Shown piece after piece: positions 10,278-27,478 of a DNA stretch of 30,969 nt. Made by a program: the position numbers and the translations under genes. The notes under the pieces are model-generated. The model was not told the origin of the DNA and ran no database searches. It worked only from the letters and a program-made list of their open reading frames with translations. Source of the DNA: a virus; IMG/VR virus record IMGVR_UViG_3300043786_000784, positions 1-30,969 of that record; one strand, 5' to 3'. How positions within the stretch are numbered: position 1 is the stretch's first letter; each line of letters begins with the position of its first letter.

Positions 10278-10584
10278 CTTCGCATTCCTTTTGGGACTTT
10301 CCACGATGGCAGCAGCAAAAGAAGCTGGCAAGGCACCCGCGCGGGTTTCCCCGCCCATGGTAAAGCCTGACACGCCATGGAAGGATACGCCATTCGGGCA
10401 AGAAGCGTTCGAGCTCAAGCGCCGGCTTGACGCTGAGGAAATCACGTTCACCGAGTTCGTGGACATGAGCGCCGCGCTCGCGCGCAAATACGGTCATGAG
10501 CCGTTCAAACGCCTCGACCCGCAACAGAATGCAGACCCGACCGCACCGGTTCGGGGCCTCATTGACCGATTGGAGCGCCGCTGA
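10264..10584 (+). CDS. Small exported protein, Sec signal peptide
   Basis: This encodes 106 residues from a GTG at 10264, chosen because GAAAGG lies about 7 bases upstream. No ATG or GTG upstream in the frame has a comparable site. The N-terminus 'RSFIFAFLLGLSTMAAAKEA' is a typical Sec signal peptide with an Ala-x-Ala cleavage site near residue 18. The mature part is Pro-rich, then helical ('FELKRRLDAEEITFTEFVDM'), with no Cys lipobox. A periplasmic product encoded beside the wall hydrolase could help DNA entry or lysis, but this is inference. It overlaps the next start (TGATG). Confidence 0.6.
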   Translation: MRSFIFAFLLGLSTMAAAKEAGKAPARVSPPMVKPDTPWKDTPFGQEAFELKRRLDAEEITFTEFVDMSAALARKYGHEPFKRLDPQQNADPTAPVRGLIDRLERR

Positions 10585-12560
10585 TGACTTCCAGCCTGTC
10601 GTCCTATTCGGATCGAGATCGCGCCATCGGCATCGGCACCATCATGGGCGAAGCCTTGCGCGAAGGCCCGGACGGCATGGCAGCGATTGCCGACGTGATC
10701 GCCAACCGGATGGAGGACCCATCCTTTGCGCGCTACGGGCAGACCATCGAGGGGCAAGCGTATCGCGCGCGCGAGTTCTCGACGTGGAGCAAGGCTGAAG
10801 AGCGCGCCTACGACATCGCCTATCGCTCTGCATTCGCGCCTGACACCCTCACGCAGCGCGAGAAAGACTTCTATTCGCAGGCGGTCGAAGCCTTCGACAG
10901 CGTATTCACGAACGGCACGCGGCGAGGCATCGCGCAAGGCGCGACCTTCTACCACAACCCGACTGTCACGGCGAAACTCGGCACGGACAGTTTTCACAAG
11001 GGTCTCGAAAAGACCTATGGCGGCGTGACCATCGGGAACCATCGCTTCACGGGGCCGAATATCGGGCGCCCGGAAGCCTACACGGTCGGCTTTACCGGCA
11101 TCCCCGATGTGGTGCGTGGTCCCGACCTCCCGGCCCCTGTCAATGTCACGACAGCCATTGAAAACCGCAACATGCCGTTGTCGGTGTCTCCCATGGGGCC
11201 GCTCGGGATGGGGCCTGAAGGCTTCCAACCGACTGCAGCCGGATTTGCCTCCGGCATCGACTTCAGCGGCTATATGCCTAGCAGCGCGCCGAGCATGACG
11301 ATGGCTGCGCCCTCGACGGACTACAGCATCGGCCCCGTTGGCGCTCTTGGCATGGCTCCTGCCGGCTTCCAGCCCAGCGCGGCGGGCTTTGCCTCGGGCG
11401 TCGACTTCGGCGGCTATGACTACGGAGCGCCAACGCCTGCCGCACGCTCTGCGCCCTCCATGACGCAGCAGCAGACCGCGCCGATGTCGGTGGGGCAGGT
11501 GGGTGCACTCGGGATGGGTCCTGAAGGCTTCCAAGCGAGCAGCCCATCGCCTGACGTGGCGGCGAACCTCGATAGCTACATGCCGAATGCAGCGCCCAGC
11601 ATGACGATGGCATCGCCTGAAATGGGCATGTCGATTGCCCCGGCTGGTGCGCTCGGCATGGCGCCTGCCGGCTTTTCGCTCGACCCCACGCGCACGCCGT
11701 CATCTGCACCCGACTTCACCTCGGCCATCAACCAGTATGGCACGTCGATGGACGAGACTGACCGCGCGCGGCGCTCCGTCGAGGCGCAGGACATGCGCCT
11801 GGGGCTTCAGCGCGAGGCGCAGCGTCTCGGTGCACCCACCAAGGACCAGGCGCGCGTGCCGCAAGCCCAGCCGCGCTCTGTTGTCGCTGGCACGCCAGAA
11901 CAGGCGCTCCAACCCGAAGAGGTTCCGGCACCGGTGCCAACGCTGCCGCCTGTGCAGCCGGTGGCGCTCACGCCTGCGCTAAGGCCCGCCATTCGCCCGC
12001 CTGCGCCCGTCATGCCGCAACAGCAGGCGCAGCAGCAAGGCCCGCGCGGCCCGTCCTCCTTCGGCTCGCTAGGCGATTACATGGGCGCAGTGTCAACCGG
12101 GCGCGCATCTGCGCCGGCTGGGCTCGAGGGCATGGTCGGCCTGCTCGGCACCGACAACTACGCCATGATGGCGTATGACCAGATCCAGAAGGCCGCCGCC
12201 CTCGAAATGGGCCTGCCTTCGCCCTTTAAAAGCTCGTTCGATTTCGGTTTCAGCCCGGTCGCCAATCCGTTCTCGGGCTTGCTCGACAGCTTCAAATCCG
12301 TGTTCGGCATCACGCCCGCGCCCTCGCTCACGCCTGCCGCACAATCTGGCGAGACGCTCGGCTGGGGCAATTACGATCTGGGGTTCGAGAAGTCGGTTCT
12401 CGACAGCTTCAACCGCAACATGGGCGATTACGTGGACTTCGGCGGCTCGCAAAGCGACGGTTGGGGTGGCTACGGCATCGGCTCCTACAACAACATGTCG
12501 AACGCTGGCGGCGGCGGTCTGACCGGCGATGGCTGGGGCAACGACCCGGCGCGCGGCTAA
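10584..12560 (+). CDS. Virion-region protein with SleB-type cell-wall hydrolase domain
   Basis: This encodes 658 residues. Residues ~10-155 match the SleB / cell-wall hydrolase family (Hydrolase_2): 'IGTIMGEALREGPDGMAAIA' carries the expected catalytic Glu (E23) in the MGEA motif. It continues with 'DVIANRM' and 'ATFYHNPTV' and ends near 'NHRFTGP'. Residues ~197-369 hold four imperfect repeats. After them come a Pro/Gln-rich linker (about 415-495) and a Gly/Asn-rich C-terminus. The enzyme probably opens peptidoglycan locally during DNA entry, since a separate endolysin is encoded downstream. It could also act in lysis. An intrinsic terminator follows immediately. Confidence 0.7.
   Translation: MTSSLSSYSDRDRAIGIGTIMGEALREGPDGMAAIADVIANRMEDPSFARYGQTIEGQAYRAREFSTWSKAEERAYDIAYRSAFAPDTLTQREKDFYSQAVEAFDSVFTNGTRRGIAQGATFYHNPTVTAKLGTDSFHKGLEKTYGGVTIGNHRFTGPNIGRPEAYTVGFTGIPDVVRGPDLPAPVNVTTAIENRNMPLSVSPMGPLGMGPEGFQPTAAGFASGIDFSGYMPSSAPSMTMAAPSTDYSIGPVGALGMAPAGFQPSAAGFASGVDFGGYDYGAPTPAARSAPSMTQQQTAPMSVGQVGALGMGPEGFQASSPSPDVAANLDSYMPNAAPSMTMASPEMGMSIAPAGALGMAPAGFSLDPTRTPSSAPDFTSAINQYGTSMDETDRARRSVEAQDMRLGLQREAQRLGAPTKDQARVPQAQPRSVVAGTPEQALQPEEVPAPVPTLPPVQPVALTPALRPAIRPPAPVMPQQQAQQQGPRGPSSFGSLGDYMGAVSTGRASAPAGLEGMVGLLGTDNYAMMAYDQIQKAAALEMGLPSPFKSSFDFGFSPVANPFSGLLDSFKSVFGITPAPSLTPAAQSGETLGWGNYDLGFEKSVLDSFNRNMGDYVDFGGSQSDGWGGYGIGSYNNMSNAGGGGLTGDGWGNDPARG
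11172..11690 (+). repeat. Four imperfect coding repeats in the SleB-like protein
   Basis: About 43-53 codons per unit. Each unit starts with a variant of 'SVxPxGxLGMxPxGFQP' and the first three continue through a variable part to 'SAPSMT'. The cores read 'GPLGMGPEGFQP', 'GALGMAPAGFQP', 'GALGMGPEGFQA' and 'GALGMAPAGFSL'. Similar stretches such as GGCATGGCTCCTGCCGG recur in the DNA. The units look like a surface-exposed or flexible spacer that has expanded by duplication. Confidence 0.8.
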
Positions 12561-13808: not shown

Positions 13809-13946
13809 ATGCGCGACGATGCCGGCATGTCGGCGCTGCTCGTCCTGTGCGTGCTGCTGATGATCCTGGCGCTTCCGGCCTGCGCCAAGCGCGATCCGTG
13901 GGCTGACTACGCGCGCGGCGTGCTTATCCTTGAAGGTGACAAATGA
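13809..13946 (+). CDS. Small membrane/lipoprotein leading the lysis cassette
   Basis: This is a 45-residue gene, 2 bp after the tail fibre stop and overlapping the endolysin start by ATGA. GGGGCG lies about 5 bases before the ATG. It is a short polar start followed by 'SALLVLCVLLMILALPACAK', a hydrophobic segment ending in Leu-Pro-Ala-Cys. This is a plausible but non-ideal lipobox because of the Pro at -2. The remaining ~20 residues are charged. It could be a tiny lipoprotein or a single-pass membrane peptide. A part in lysis is inferred from position. Confidence 0.6.
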   Translation: MRDDAGMSALLVLCVLLMILALPACAKRDPWADYARGVLILEGDK

Positions 13947-14617
13947 CGGGTATCGATACCGCCAGCGAACGCCGGCTTGAAGGCGTTCACCCCGACCTTG
14001 TGCGCGTTGTCCGTCGCGCGGCTGCCGATGGTGCGCCGTCCTTCCGCGTGATTGAAGGCGTCCGCAGTCTGACAAGGCAGCGTGATCTTGTCGCCCGTGG
14101 CGCCTCAAAGACGATGAACAGTCGGCACCTGACGGGGCACGCTGTCGATATCGTGCCGCTGGACCAGTATGGCGGCGTGTCGTGGGACTGGCCGCTTTAT
14201 CGCCCGCTTGCCAAGGCCATCAAGGCGGCAGCGAAGGCCGAAGGCGTGCCTGTTGAATGGGGCGGGGACTGGACGCGCTTTGCCGATGGTCCGCACTGGC
14301 AACTGCCGTGGAAGGCATATCCCGCCACGCCCCCGCGCGAAGCCGCCAGCGCCGAACCCATCACCGAACGCAACCGCACGAACCTTGCCGCGTCGCGGAC
14401 TGCGCAGGGTGCCGTTGCCGCATCCGCAGGCGGCGCCGTGGGCCTTCTGGAAAGCGGGCGCCAGATCACGACCGAACTTCAGCAGGCGGATGGCCACATA
14501 TCGTCGGGTTCCATCCTTGGACTGGCCATCGGCGCAATCATCGTCACGGGCGCGCTGTATGCGCTTTATGCCCGATGGGACGACGCCGGGCGTCCGCTGC
14601 CATGGGGGCGGGAATGA
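13943..14617 (+). CDS. Endolysin: M15-type D,L-peptidase with C-terminal membrane anchor
   Basis: This encodes 224 residues. The N-terminal ~125 residues match peptidase M15 (VanY / L-alanyl-D-glutamate peptidase) endolysins. 'SRHLTGHAVDIVP' supplies zinc ligands H62 and D69, and 'EWGGDWTRFADGPHWQL' supplies the third ligand H118 and the probable catalytic acid D115. It should cut peptide stems of peptidoglycan. Residues ~188-210 ('SILGLAIGAIIVTGALYALY') form one clear transmembrane helix near the C-terminus, preceded by a Gly/Ala-rich linker. There is no N-terminal signal. It overlaps the genes on both sides by 4 bases, as the first enzyme of the lysis cassette. Confidence 0.85.
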   Translation: MTGIDTASERRLEGVHPDLVRVVRRAAADGAPSFRVIEGVRSLTRQRDLVARGASKTMNSRHLTGHAVDIVPLDQYGGVSWDWPLYRPLAKAIKAAAKAEGVPVEWGGDWTRFADGPHWQLPWKAYPATPPREAASAEPITERNRTNLAASRTAQGAVAASAGGAVGLLESGRQITTELQQADGHISSGSILGLAIGAIIVTGALYALYARWDDAGRPLPWGRE

Positions 14618-21907: not shown

Positions 21908-22447
21908 ATGCGAAAAGTTACGAAATGGACTGCCGAGATGGACGCGGAATTGCGTCGCATGATGGCGGATGGCCGCTCATCGAGCGTGATTGCGCGTTGC
22001 CTCGGCATCGGAAAAAAGGCGGTCAAGAACCGCTACAGGCTCCTTGGCATCGCCAACAAGCTAAGCGGGCGGATATGGGCACAGCACGAGGTCGAGACCG
22101 CCGCAAGGATGCACAGCGAGGGTGCTTCGTTTGGCAGGATCGCCCGCGCGATCGGCAAAACGAAGGCTTCCGTCAAGACCAAGATCACCCGCCGGATTGC
22201 GCAGCCTGTTGGCGCGCTGGCAAAAGCCGCTCGCCCGCATTTCGTGCCTGCTGGGCCGAATGATGACGAAGCCCGGCGTATGGCCGCGAGCTTGCTGCAC
22301 CTGATCGACCTCAAGCGCGCCGGTCACAGCCCCGCACGCACAGAGCTTCGGGTTCCTCGCGACTATGGCAGCGCGCGCGTCATGCGCCCCGCCTTGGGCT
22401 TCAGCGTCACGGGCTCGTCGGCTGCCGATTGCGCGGTGCTGTCATGA
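21908..22447 (+). CDS. Two-repeat Myb/GcrA-like DNA-binding protein
   Basis: This encodes 179 residues with GAGGGG before the ATG. Residues ~5-47 ('WTAEMDAELRRMMADGRSSS', 'IARCLGIGKKAVKNRYRLLGI') and ~56-97 ('QHEVETAARMHSEGASFGRI', 'ARAIGKTKASVKTKITRRI') are two related Myb/SANT-GcrA-type trihelical units. The C-terminal half is less structured. GcrA is an alphaproteobacterial cell-cycle regulator, and such proteins are often carried by alphaproteobacterial phages. It follows the terminator, in the position of lambda cII. It may regulate the early operon or bind the origin. Its last codons overlap the resolvase start (ATGA). Confidence 0.7.
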   Translation: MRKVTKWTAEMDAELRRMMADGRSSSVIARCLGIGKKAVKNRYRLLGIANKLSGRIWAQHEVETAARMHSEGASFGRIARAIGKTKASVKTKITRRIAQPVGALAKAARPHFVPAGPNDDEARRMAASLLHLIDLKRAGHSPARTELRVPRDYGSARVMRPALGFSVTGSSAADCAVLS

Positions 22448-24448: not shown

Positions 24449-26641
24449 ATGGGCGCGTTCGACATGGCGGAGCAACCGCAACCAAACGTCACGGCCATGC
24501 GTCAGCACGTCGAGCACCTCTTCGGCGGGTGGCTCGATGGCTATCACGACGGGCTGATTGAGCTTGCATGGACCGAAACCACGCCCGACGCGGCGGGGCG
24601 GTATCGGCTTAAACACGCGCGCCTGTTCGGCACCGACCAGATTGACGAACTGATTGAAGAAGCCGCCAGGCTCAACAGGGTTCCCTACTGCAACACATAT
24701 TTAGGCGCAGCTCTGCGCCATCCGAACACGGCACCTTTCGGCAGGACGAATGACGGAGAGGCATGGGCCTTGACCGCCGTCTATGTCGATCTCGACACCG
24801 CCGATGCGGTGCAGGCGGCACGCGATAAATACAAGCTCGCCAAGCCGACGATGATCGTTGTCACGGGCCGCGCGCCTCATACACGCGCGCAATTGTGGTG
24901 GCGCCTCGAAAGCCCCTTGGACGACCCCGCCACGTGGCCTGAGCTTCTGTCTGCGATGGCAGACAACATGGACGGCGACACGACCGTTACCAACCCGTCG
25001 CGCGTCATGCGCCTTGCCGGCTCGATTGCATGGCCCGTCAAGGCAGGTCGGCAGGCCGAAGTCACGGAGATCGTGCCGCTTCGCGAGCCCGGTCTCGCGC
25101 TCTACGCGCCTGAATACATTCAGGCGGCGCTTTGCCCCGCTGGCTTGCGCAGCCGCCCCGTGCCGGGCGTCAGCACGAGCGGTATCGAGCGCAAGGCCAA
25201 CAGCCTGGGCTTGCCGGGTCGCGTTCAGGACGGACGCGAACGCTATATGCGCGATGTCGCACTTGCCGTCATGGGCGAGTATATCGGCACCAATGGATGC
25301 GTGCCGACGCCTCAAGAGCTTTTCGAACTGGCATGGCCGCAATACGAGCGGAACACCGATTTCAGCCGCCCCGGACGCGGCCCCGAAGAATTCGCGGAAA
25401 AGTGCCGCTATGCGGTGCAGCGTTTTGAGCGCGGCGAAATCAGGGGCATGCGCACGCTGGACGAAGCTGTCGCCACCTACCAGAAGAAGGTAGAGGCGCG
25501 GGCACGCGCAACCACGCCCGCACAGATCTTCAACGCCGATACGCGACAGCGCCAGCCGGAAGCGCACACCGAAACGGACGAGCCGGTTGCGCTGTCCGAC
25601 CTCAAGGGTGAACCCAAGCCCCGCGAATGGTTCGTAGAGGAATGGGTGCCTGCAGGTTCCGTGACCGCGCTCTATGGCGATGGCGGCACCGGCAAGACAT
25701 TGCTTGCGCAGCAATTGCTCGTGGCAGCCGATATCGGCGGCAAGTGGTGCGGTATCGACGTGCCGCAAACAAACGCCCTCGGCGTGTTCTGCGAAGACGA
25801 CCACGACGAATTGCACAGGCGGCACAACGCTATCTGTGCGTCCATGGGGCTGGGTATCGGCGCTGCCTTCAACGGCTCCCGGATATGGCCGCGCGTCGGT
25901 CACGAGAACCTGCTCGTGACCTTCGACAAGAACAACCTCCCGGCCCTGTCACCTTTCTTCGCCCGCATCATGGACCAGGTGATGGCGCACCGGGTCGGGT
26001 TTCTCGTGCTCGATACCGCAGCCGACCTGTTCGGCGGCAACGAGATCATCCGTGCGCAGGTCAACCACTTCATCAAGAGCGTCTGCGGTGGCTTCATCCG
26101 GGCTGCCAAGGATAAGGGCTGGATATTGACCGTGCTGCTTCTTGCGCATCCCTCACAGAGCGGTCGCAACAGCGGTTCGGGCGAAAGCGGTTCGACCGCG
26201 TGGAACAACGCCGTTCGCTCACGGCTCTATCTCACCCGCGATGAACAGGGCGGCGGCAATGACCGCATCCTGACACGCATGAAGTCCAACTATGCCGCCG
26301 CTGGTCAGGACCAGTGCATCAATCTCGAATGGCGTGAAGGGGCTCTCGTGCCCCGCCGGGGTCAAGGTCAAGGGTTCGAATGGCCAGAGCGCGACACATG
26401 CGAGGCCGTCCTCCAGTCGATTGAAGAGGCATGGGCTTCGGGCCGGCCATGGTCGAACGCAGTGCAGACGCGAAGCGAGGGCCGATATGCCCCGCGCCAC
26501 ATGCAGCAGCGCCACGGGATCGCACCGGCACTTGCCGAGCACATGATCGAACAGTGGCTGATGAACGGCATCCTGACGGTCGAAATGAGGGGCAGCCACA
26601 GCAAGATCAAAGGGCTCAAGGTGACCGGTTCCATCGCCTGA
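24449..26641 (+). CDS. Fused DNA primase-helicase
   Basis: This encodes 730 residues from the ATG at 24449, with GAGGGG 7 bases upstream. Residues ~30-215 resemble the RepB-like archaeo-eukaryotic primase fold: 'LTAVYVDLDTADAV' (metal-binding D114, D116), 'QLWWRLESPLDD' and 'NPSRVMRLAGSIAWP'. Residues ~385-650 are a RepA/AAA_25-type RecA-fold ATPase: Walker A 'GDGGTGKT' (410-417), 'VFCEDDHDELHRRH', Walker B 'GFLVLDTAADLF' with D522, and 'GSGESGSTAWNNAVRSRLYL', a typical RepA segment. It should unwind and prime phage DNA. The iteron array directly downstream suggests that this protein acts at that site. Confidence 0.85.
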   Translation: MGAFDMAEQPQPNVTAMRQHVEHLFGGWLDGYHDGLIELAWTETTPDAAGRYRLKHARLFGTDQIDELIEEAARLNRVPYCNTYLGAALRHPNTAPFGRTNDGEAWALTAVYVDLDTADAVQAARDKYKLAKPTMIVVTGRAPHTRAQLWWRLESPLDDPATWPELLSAMADNMDGDTTVTNPSRVMRLAGSIAWPVKAGRQAEVTEIVPLREPGLALYAPEYIQAALCPAGLRSRPVPGVSTSGIERKANSLGLPGRVQDGRERYMRDVALAVMGEYIGTNGCVPTPQELFELAWPQYERNTDFSRPGRGPEEFAEKCRYAVQRFERGEIRGMRTLDEAVATYQKKVEARARATTPAQIFNADTRQRQPEAHTETDEPVALSDLKGEPKPREWFVEEWVPAGSVTALYGDGGTGKTLLAQQLLVAADIGGKWCGIDVPQTNALGVFCEDDHDELHRRHNAICASMGLGIGAAFNGSRIWPRVGHENLLVTFDKNNLPALSPFFARIMDQVMAHRVGFLVLDTAADLFGGNEIIRAQVNHFIKSVCGGFIRAAKDKGWILTVLLLAHPSQSGRNSGSGESGSTAWNNAVRSRLYLTRDEQGGGNDRILTRMKSNYAAAGQDQCINLEWREGALVPRRGQGQGFEWPERDTCEAVLQSIEEAWASGRPWSNAVQTRSEGRYAPRHMQQRHGIAPALAEHMIEQWLMNGILTVEMRGSHSKIKGLKVTGSIA

Positions 26642-26647
26642 AACGGG

Positions 26648-26801
26648 TGCGGAAGTCGTGCGGAAGTCAAAGCCGATTTGCGGAAGTAGGGGTTCTAAGT
26701 CATTGAAATCATTGAGCGGGGGTCTTGTGCGGAAGTCTTGCGGAAGTGCGGAAGTAGGGGTTCTAAGTCATTGAAATCATTGAGTGCGGAAGTGCGGAAG
26801 T
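26648..26801. repeat. Iteron-like array, candidate replication origin
   Basis: Eight exact copies of TGCGGAAGT start at 26648, 26659, 26679, 26728, 26739, 26747, 26785 and 26793, some overlapping by one base. They form modules of 3, 3 and 2. The first two modules each end in an identical 29-base tail containing TCATTGA twice, so 26679-26716 and 26747-26784 are identical 38-bp direct repeats. The tail is noticeably AT-richer than its surroundings, like a DNA-unwinding element. The array is the longest non-coding stretch near the primase-helicase gene. Confidence 0.75.
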
Positions 26802-26806
26802 TAACC

Positions 26807-26844
26807 CTCCCCCTAAAGGGGGAGAGCGTCCCCGCCCAAGCGGG
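26807..26844. other. Two tandem hairpins beside the iterons
   Basis: CTCCCCC (26807-26813) pairs with GGGGGAG (26818-26824) around TAAA. CCCGC (26831-26835) pairs with GCGGG (26840-26844) around CCAA. They lie between the iterons and the next start codon. They could be primase-initiation structures, as in RSF1010-type origins, or mRNA leader elements. No T-run follows either. Confidence 0.55.
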
Positions 26845-26866
26845 ACACTCTCGGAAAGGACACCAG

Positions 26867-27478
26867 ATGGGCAAGGCATTGACGCATGACAGGCTGGCGG
26901 ATGGCGGCACGACGCCAAGCCGCAAATGGGCTGCGACCCATGGCGGATGGATCGCAGGACGCGCCGCCATCGATGCCGCCGATGCCATGGCGGCAGAGAT
27001 GGAACGGCGCTGGGGGGTGGGGCGACTTCGCCTACTGGTGGCGACAGACCTTCGCGAGAAGTTCGACAGGCAACGCTACCTGTTCAACCAAGCTGTCTGG
27101 CATGGCGGCGAAGTCGAAGACGTGCGCCGCGAAAGCCAGCGCATGGTGAATGCCTGGGCCGCTCTCGACAAGGCGGCACGCGGCACGGGAGCCGTGCCCA
27201 TGGCGCCCGAGATGATGGAGGTCGGACTGTCGGACGGGCGCGTTTGCGCCATCGTCCCGGATGCTGCATCCGCGCATCTCGTGATGGCCGAAGATCGATC
27301 GATGGTGGTCTACACGCTTGAAGAGATCGCCCGGCTCATCGATGCCTTCCCGCTGGTCTCCAAGGCCAAGGACGTGTCCCCCGGCGCGACCGTGGTGGCA
27401 GCACGCCAGACCATCGACGACCCGCTCGCAGCCATCGACGACACGGCGGTGGCGCTCGACGACCCGTTGCCGTTCTGA
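26867..27478 (+). CDS. Conserved protein with SSB-like C-terminal tip
   Basis: This encodes 203 residues from the ATG at 26867 with AAAGGA just upstream; the frame is open through the iteron array but that part is repeat DNA. Residues ~20-110 are helical ('WIAGRAAIDAADAMAAEMER', 'LREKFDRQRYLFNQAVWHGG'). A small beta region follows ('VCAIVPDAASAHLVM', 'MVVYTLEEIARLIDAFPL'). The C-terminus is a linker ending 'VALDDPLPF', close to the DDDIPF tip by which SSB recruits partners. No OB fold is evident. Role unknown; a replication accessory is inferred. Confidence 0.6.
   Translation: MGKALTHDRLADGGTTPSRKWAATHGGWIAGRAAIDAADAMAAEMERRWGVGRLRLLVATDLREKFDRQRYLFNQAVWHGGEVEDVRRESQRMVNAWAALDKAARGTGAVPMAPEMMEVGLSDGRVCAIVPDAASAHLVMAEDRSMVVYTLEEIARLIDAFPLVSKAKDVSPGATVVAARQTIDDPLAAIDDTAVALDDPLPF

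Follow-up and report, generated by a model that had tools for sequence, protein, structure and literature searches.

The alpha protein of P4 acts as one polypeptide, whose winged helix binds the repeats of the origin before the protein unwinds and primes (summarised in PMC4234260), and the C-terminal domains of SaPI Rep and SCCmec Cch2 bind short iterons that lie just downstream of their own genes (PMC7581432). In RSF1010, the stem-loops ssiA and ssiB are used by RepB' for priming (PMC4234260). For the PrimQH family of PrimPol-PV1, a combination of an AEP primase, a RepA or other RecA-type helicase, and a C-terminal winged helix that maybe recognises origins has been described (Kazlauskas 2018; PMC5862659), and the word "iteron" is absent from that paper, which names no origin.

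We analysed a viral DNA of 30,969 nucleotides (the window), in which the gene of a primase-helicase is directly followed by an iteron array. Like P4 alpha, the encoded protein combines primase, helicase, and C-terminal winged helix in a single polypeptide, the winged helix being seen in a model of pLDDT 95. The helicase of P4 alpha belongs to SF3, whereas that of the window is RecA-like and of the RSF1010-RepA type, with the candidate origin directly after the gene. The primases differ as well, as P4 has a TOPRIM bacterial-type primase (PMC4234260), and the window an AEP primase that is replaced by a DnaG type in some relatives. With SaPI Rep and Cch2, the window and its relatives share the placement of a putative iteron origin immediately behind the helicase gene, but those systems have a DUF927 or D5/Primase_Cterm helicase and a separate or different primase, whereas the window helicase is RepA/AAA_25. 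The well-studied single-polypeptide initiators cited here, P4 alpha and SaPI Rep, thus belong to other helicase classes. RSF1010 (IncQ) has a RepA-type helicase, a primase, iterons, and stem-loops placed as in the window, but it uses three proteins, with RepC on the iterons, whereas the functions appear to be fused in one protein in the window; furthermore, its iterons measure about 20 bp, and the window units 9 bp, some overlapping by one base. The likeness to PrimQH, which concerns the AEP primase, the RecA/RepA helicase, and the C-terminal winged helix, is one of architecture, not phylogeny. In pRN1 ORF904, an AEP primase, a helicase, and a C-terminal winged helix are also combined, with the origin downstream of the gene, but its helicase is SF3 and its origin consists of a single large stem-loop instead of iterons. 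The proposed module is like P4 alpha and SaPI Rep in the way it works, is set apart from both by the class of its helicase, and is comparable to an RSF1010 whose three functions have been fused. The sequence-only reading of this DNA had suspected an unusual initiation system, which is overstated, since single-polypeptide initiators with the origin beside the gene are known and the architecture was predicted in 2018. While the architecture alone was thus predicted earlier, we found neither the origin nor its pairing with the tail in the literature searched, and a plain-text literature search for the 9-mer listed matches that looked like primers.

Anatomy of the array and the upstream gene

All elements that had been described from the letters alone were recovered on recounting, namely eight exact 9-mers within 154 bp, their 3+3+2 modules, two 38-bp direct repeats with a 68-bp period that carry TCATTGA twice, and two hairpins behind the array (Table 1). 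The exact matches to TGCGGAAGT, all on the + strand, begin at 26648, 26659, 26679, 26728, 26739, 26747, 26785, and 26793, and one base is shared by the two copies of each of the pairs 26739/26747 and 26785/26793. No further copy is found in the rest of the window; 0.22 copies are expected by chance, and 100 shuffles gave at most 3. The identical 38-bp repeats occupy 26679-26716 and 26747-26784. A 225-bp gap between the stop of the primase-helicase gene and the next ATG contains the entire array, which starts 7 bp past that stop, and the two hairpins have three bases in common.

Table 1. Features of the candidate origin region and its flanking genes (window coordinates)
Feature	Position	Strand	Basis
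Primase-helicase-initiator gene (initiator role proposed), 735 aa: AEP primase, RSF1010-RepA-like helicase, C-terminal winged helix	24434..26641	+	Pfam, profiles, model
C-terminal winged helix, proposed iteron-binding (origin-recognition) domain	26372..26638	+	AlphaFold, structural matches, tracks array in relatives
Iteron array, 8 x TGCGGAAGT, clusters 3+3+2	26648..26801	+	Exact count, shuffles
AT-richer element 1, CTAAGTCATTGAAATCATTGAG	26695..26716	+	Motif recurrence in relatives
AT-richer element 2, same sequence as element 1	26763..26784	+	Motif recurrence in relatives
Hairpin 1, CTCCCCC-TAAA-GGGGGAG, without T-run	26807..26824	none	Sequence; hairpins in relatives
Hairpin 2, arms GAGAG..GTCCC / GGGAC..CTCTC, without T-run	26822..26852	none	Sequence; hairpins in relatives
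ORF2, conserved partner gene, probable SSB analogue, tip LDDPLPF	26867..27478	+	Identity, tail pattern, SSB replacement

The upstream protein had been read as a fusion of a RepB-like primase and a RepA-like helicase. The helicase assignment was borne out: a profile of the relatives matches the RSF1010 RepA structure 1g8y over its full length (E=2.6e-31), residues 384-575 match AAA_25 (PF13481, E=2.8e-25), which together with AAA_22 is all that Pfam detects in the protein, and the full-length model, although of modest confidence (pLDDT 72), has 1nlf as its best structural match (E=8.8e-12). For the primase, the AEP fold held up, as residues 103-210 match the PrimPol AEP 6zp9 (E=1.2e-5), and relatives clearly match Prim-Pol (PF09250). 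The RepB_primase family itself is matched in one relative (L083), below the cut-off (E=0.0028).

Recurrence of the array in relatives

The sequence-only reading had proposed an iteron origin beside a fused primase-helicase and a search of related phages for the same pairing, and this idea is now supported, since the same array adjoins primase-helicase homologues in many phages. When IMG/VR was scanned for clustered TGCGGAAGT, the array was found behind helicase homologues with identities down to 22-27%, and dozens of viral contigs and alphaproteobacterial prophages have the array with an RSF1010-RepA-type helicase upstream. Our contig counts cover the matches listed and are not exhaustive. Among these matches, the tail domain of the primase-helicase is encoded in 52 of the 78 viral contigs with at least three TGCGGAAGT per 400 bp (43/61 and 9/17), in 2 of 65 with a mere pair, and in none of the 117 contigs with the reversed motif that served as control. 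Tail gene and array are on the same strand and mostly -57 to +80 bp apart, with distances of 428-1166 bp in some marine groups. In six of the remaining clusters, the ORF2 family is present and the domain is missing, in several cases visibly because the contig edge falls at the array, and others are coding repeats or contig-end tandem repeats. Triples of TGCGGAAGT in genomes are accompanied by the tail domain in 6 of 119 cases; the six loci are all alphaproteobacterial by record title, and the other triples are mostly unrelated, as TGCGGAAGT also occurs in coding repeats, an appearance noted in at least some of those non-domain triples that were read. Pairs of TGCGGAAGT were rejected as evidence: they are no commoner than the control motif explains, and therefore only clusters of at least three together with the protein are informative.

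A blind test, in which the tail domain alone was the query against about 1,480 genomes and the DNA motif was ignored, gave 11 host loci that were new relative to the motif search. An array lies just downstream in 11/11, and each of these arrays exceeds all 300 dinucleotide shuffles. The units are GCGGAAGT, GCGGAGGT, GCGGAGAA, GCGGAGAC, GCGGAGC, ACGGAAGT, and once GCACAGCA; most are of a GCGGARRN type. Further iterons are GCGGAGAT in the Rhizobium phage RHph_N65, GCGGAAGT in EBPR siphovirus 5, and TGCGGAAG in the Caenibius plasmid p1, which carries the entire module, with a homologue over 98% of the protein, the array, and ORF2. The region downstream of the Wolbachia WO RepA, inspected by eye, showed no clear array of this kind.

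The surroundings of the iterons recur as well. Of 58 distinct relatives, 34 have an AT-richer TAAGTCATTGAAATCATTGA element no more than 300 bp from the helicase stop, compared with 0.8 in shuffles; in 23 it occurs two or more times, and in 24 it is absent. A similar element is present at candidate origins with quite different iterons (L408:4193-4275, L411:3712-3800), and its presence despite differing iterons points to a reader other than the variable tail, or to an unwinding element. Behind the array, most relatives also have hairpins (z<-1 in 79% of 57 loci, median -2.16), and by their place, comparable to that of ssiA and ssiB, they may represent an ssi-like priming signal.

We consider it extremely improbable that the array serves packaging, partition, or recombination, or that it is a chance or coding repeat. 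It is true that tandem TGCGGAAGT is found in coding hexapeptide-like repeats (L052, L104), that contig-end tandem repeats exist (L013, L016), and that pairs do not exceed what a control motif can explain. However, over very divergent phages the array keeps a fixed position after the helicase-initiator gene, AT element and hairpins are conserved, and the iteron changes together with the C-terminus of the protein. A role as transcriptional operator, at which a repressor, possibly the primase-helicase, ORF2, or a GcrA-like protein, would control ORF2 and later genes, is somewhat less improbable but still quite unlikely. Iteron-binding initiators often autoregulate, and ORF2 does follow the array in the window and in many relatives, but in RHph_N65 two convergent genes face the array with their 3' ends, so that a promoter-operator role is excluded there, and the distances from the helicase stop in the marine groups also disagree with an operator. 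Furthermore, ORF2 is kept where the iterons change, and the array tracks the helicase-fused domain, not a free repressor.

Cumulative GC skew had been suggested as a means to read the replication start. Its minimum in the window is at 26326, 322 bp off the array, which is weak support for an origin, since the window, an entire IMG/VR record that lacks end repeats, is linear and probably incomplete, and since skew is biased by gene orientation. The minimum of the detrended cumulative skew in Caenibius p1 lies 839 bp from the array, and the skew minimum of RHph_N65 lies about 10 kb from its array. Skew thus agrees with the array position in two of three genomes, and we rejected it as proof of an origin because RHph_N65 disagrees.

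Two further types of repeats were noted in these searches. An AT-rich viral contig has seven TGCGGAAGT on both strands beside a 586-aa ORF (L018:10353-10721), in which no winged-helix domain was found. Two contigs from one metagenome end in pure 8-bp tandem GCGGAAGT runs (L013:8459-8547, L016:7902-7982), possibly assembly breaks in longer arrays.

The C-terminal tail as candidate initiator

The last ~90 residues of the protein, with the tail domain of about 75 residues, are predicted with high confidence to fold as a winged helix. The AlphaFold model of the domain (pLDDT 95) has helices at 7-22, 40-48, and 52-64 and strands at 68-72 and 80-84, and its top structural matches are winged-helix proteins, several of them DNA-bound, for example 6lui (Z 8.8, rmsd 2.6, 71 aligned). 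The C-terminus of archaeal MCM (Z 7.5) and the N-terminal domain of DnaD (Z 7.0) are further neighbours, although a Z under 8 may, by the comparison tool's own caveat, just reflect a common arrangement. The domain has no Pfam family, its profile has no significant match among PDB sequences, and Foldseek with the C-terminal model gave no match at E below 0.001.

C-terminus and iteron do not only occur together; they are also exchanged together. In L009, the primase (52% identity) and ORF2 are kept, the C-terminus differs, and the repeats are GGGACAAA, with no TGCGGAAGT in the gap. An Azospirillum locus and the Rhizobium phage RHph_Y3_1 each have a RepA-type helicase with another C-terminus and other repeats, ACGGACA in the former and CGTTCCCA in the latter, and both have kept the AT element. 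Conversely, a DnaG-type CHC2/TOPRIM primase replaces the AEP primase in L025, and C-terminus and TGCGGAAGT are unchanged. These swaps indicate that the iteron sequence follows the C-terminus, and neither the primase nor ORF2. Within the domain family, winged-helix identity and iteron identity were not significantly correlated (Mantel r=0.13, p=0.19, n=15), so the coupling holds between families only and we claim no recognition code. As the tail is the part of the protein that tracks the iterons across relatives, the primase-helicase most likely carries, in its own tail, the initiator that had been missing from the sequence-only reading, and this co-exchange makes iteron binding by the tail the most likely reading. 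The CGTTCCCA array behind the RepA-type helicase of RHph_Y3_1 (L411:3662-3860) can be listed as a further candidate tail/iteron pair. A single other locus, L403 (downstream of 1722), is the sole domain relative with a non-GCGGA iteron, GCACAGCA, and its wing is altered too, with RKHPAG in place of SKxKG.

Two other proteins had been named as possible initiators, and neither resembles RepC in Pfam or PHROGs. The Myb/GcrA-like protein (21908-22447) was rejected, since no homologue is encoded in the fetched array loci, whose flanks span a few to about 10 kb. ORF2 was rejected as well, since it persists, with about 55% identity in L009, where the iterons have changed, and since it looks like an SSB analogue. 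Its identity is 46-57% in closer and about 30-45% in more distant relatives, and an acidic -PF tail pattern of the DDIPF type is found in 26 of 38 distinct homologues, in 25 of them at the very end. Such an acidic -PF tip is typical of SSB proteins. In L064 and L105, which have no ORF2, a canonical SSB (PF00436, E about 1e-36) is encoded downstream of the array (L064:1027-1500 and L105:2009-2497). Tip and replacement together suggest that the ORF2 family is more likely an SSB analogue than an initiator, and it may constitute an undescribed family of such analogues.

It is also conceivable, but unlikely, that the gap is an origin at which a host factor, ORF2, or an unlinked phage protein binds the iterons, and that the tail serves protein contacts or binds the AT element. 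The weak quantitative co-variation within the domain family would fit this, as would the presence of the DnaD N-terminal domain, a winged helix involved in replication initiation, among the structural neighbours of the tail, and the separate RepC that RSF1010 has for its iterons (PMC4234260). However, three exchanges of the C-terminus are accompanied by changed iterons while the AT element, ORF2, or both stay, and no other gene is common to all array loci, with ORF2 not near the array in 35 of the 82 that have the tail domain. We consider it quite probable that the gap at 26642-26866 is the replication origin of the phage and that the protein encoded upstream is its own initiator, acting through its winged-helix tail on TGCGGAAGT.

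Proposed mechanism and its implications

In the mechanism that we propose, the C-terminal winged helix of the primase-helicase would bind the TGCGGAAGT iterons and thereby bring helicase subunits together at the array. Opening would take place at the AT-richer TAAGTCATTGAAATCATTGA elements that lie between these clusters of iterons, and a RepA-type hexamer would be loaded there, presumably without a separate loader. The AEP domain of the same protein would then prime, and the two hairpins may be the sites for this, as ssiA/ssiB are in RSF1010, while ORF2 as SSB analogue would coat the single strands and the host polymerase would extend. More tentatively, and with somewhat more doubt than conviction, we suggest a general form of this: a RecA-fold replicative helicase of the RSF1010-RepA type whose own tail would load it on an iteron origin in double-stranded DNA, with no separate initiator or loader, in which tail and array form an exchangeable specificity cassette and the AT element, independent of the iterons, is read by a common factor.

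If the tail loads the helicase, the latter would be RecA-type and self-loading, in contrast to RSF1010 RepA, which needs RepC. That winged-helix tails recognise origins in PrimPol-RepA fusions, as predicted in 2018, becomes directly testable, with the natural swaps as controls, and a sequence-level rule becomes available for locating origins in alphaproteobacterial and environmental phages, a large group that is mostly unannotated and includes named isolates such as RHph_N65. The cassette of tail and iterons could also determine the compatibility between co-resident phages and plasmids. Caenibius p1 is a ready test object for the proposed origin. This replicon (NZ_CP081845.1, from Caenibius sp. 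WL; our locus L407), deposited as a plasmid, is a 38-kb circle and phage-like, with terminase, capsid, and integrase. Outside the replication module, the window ORFs 10584-12560 and 13943-14617 each match endolysin families (PHROGs).
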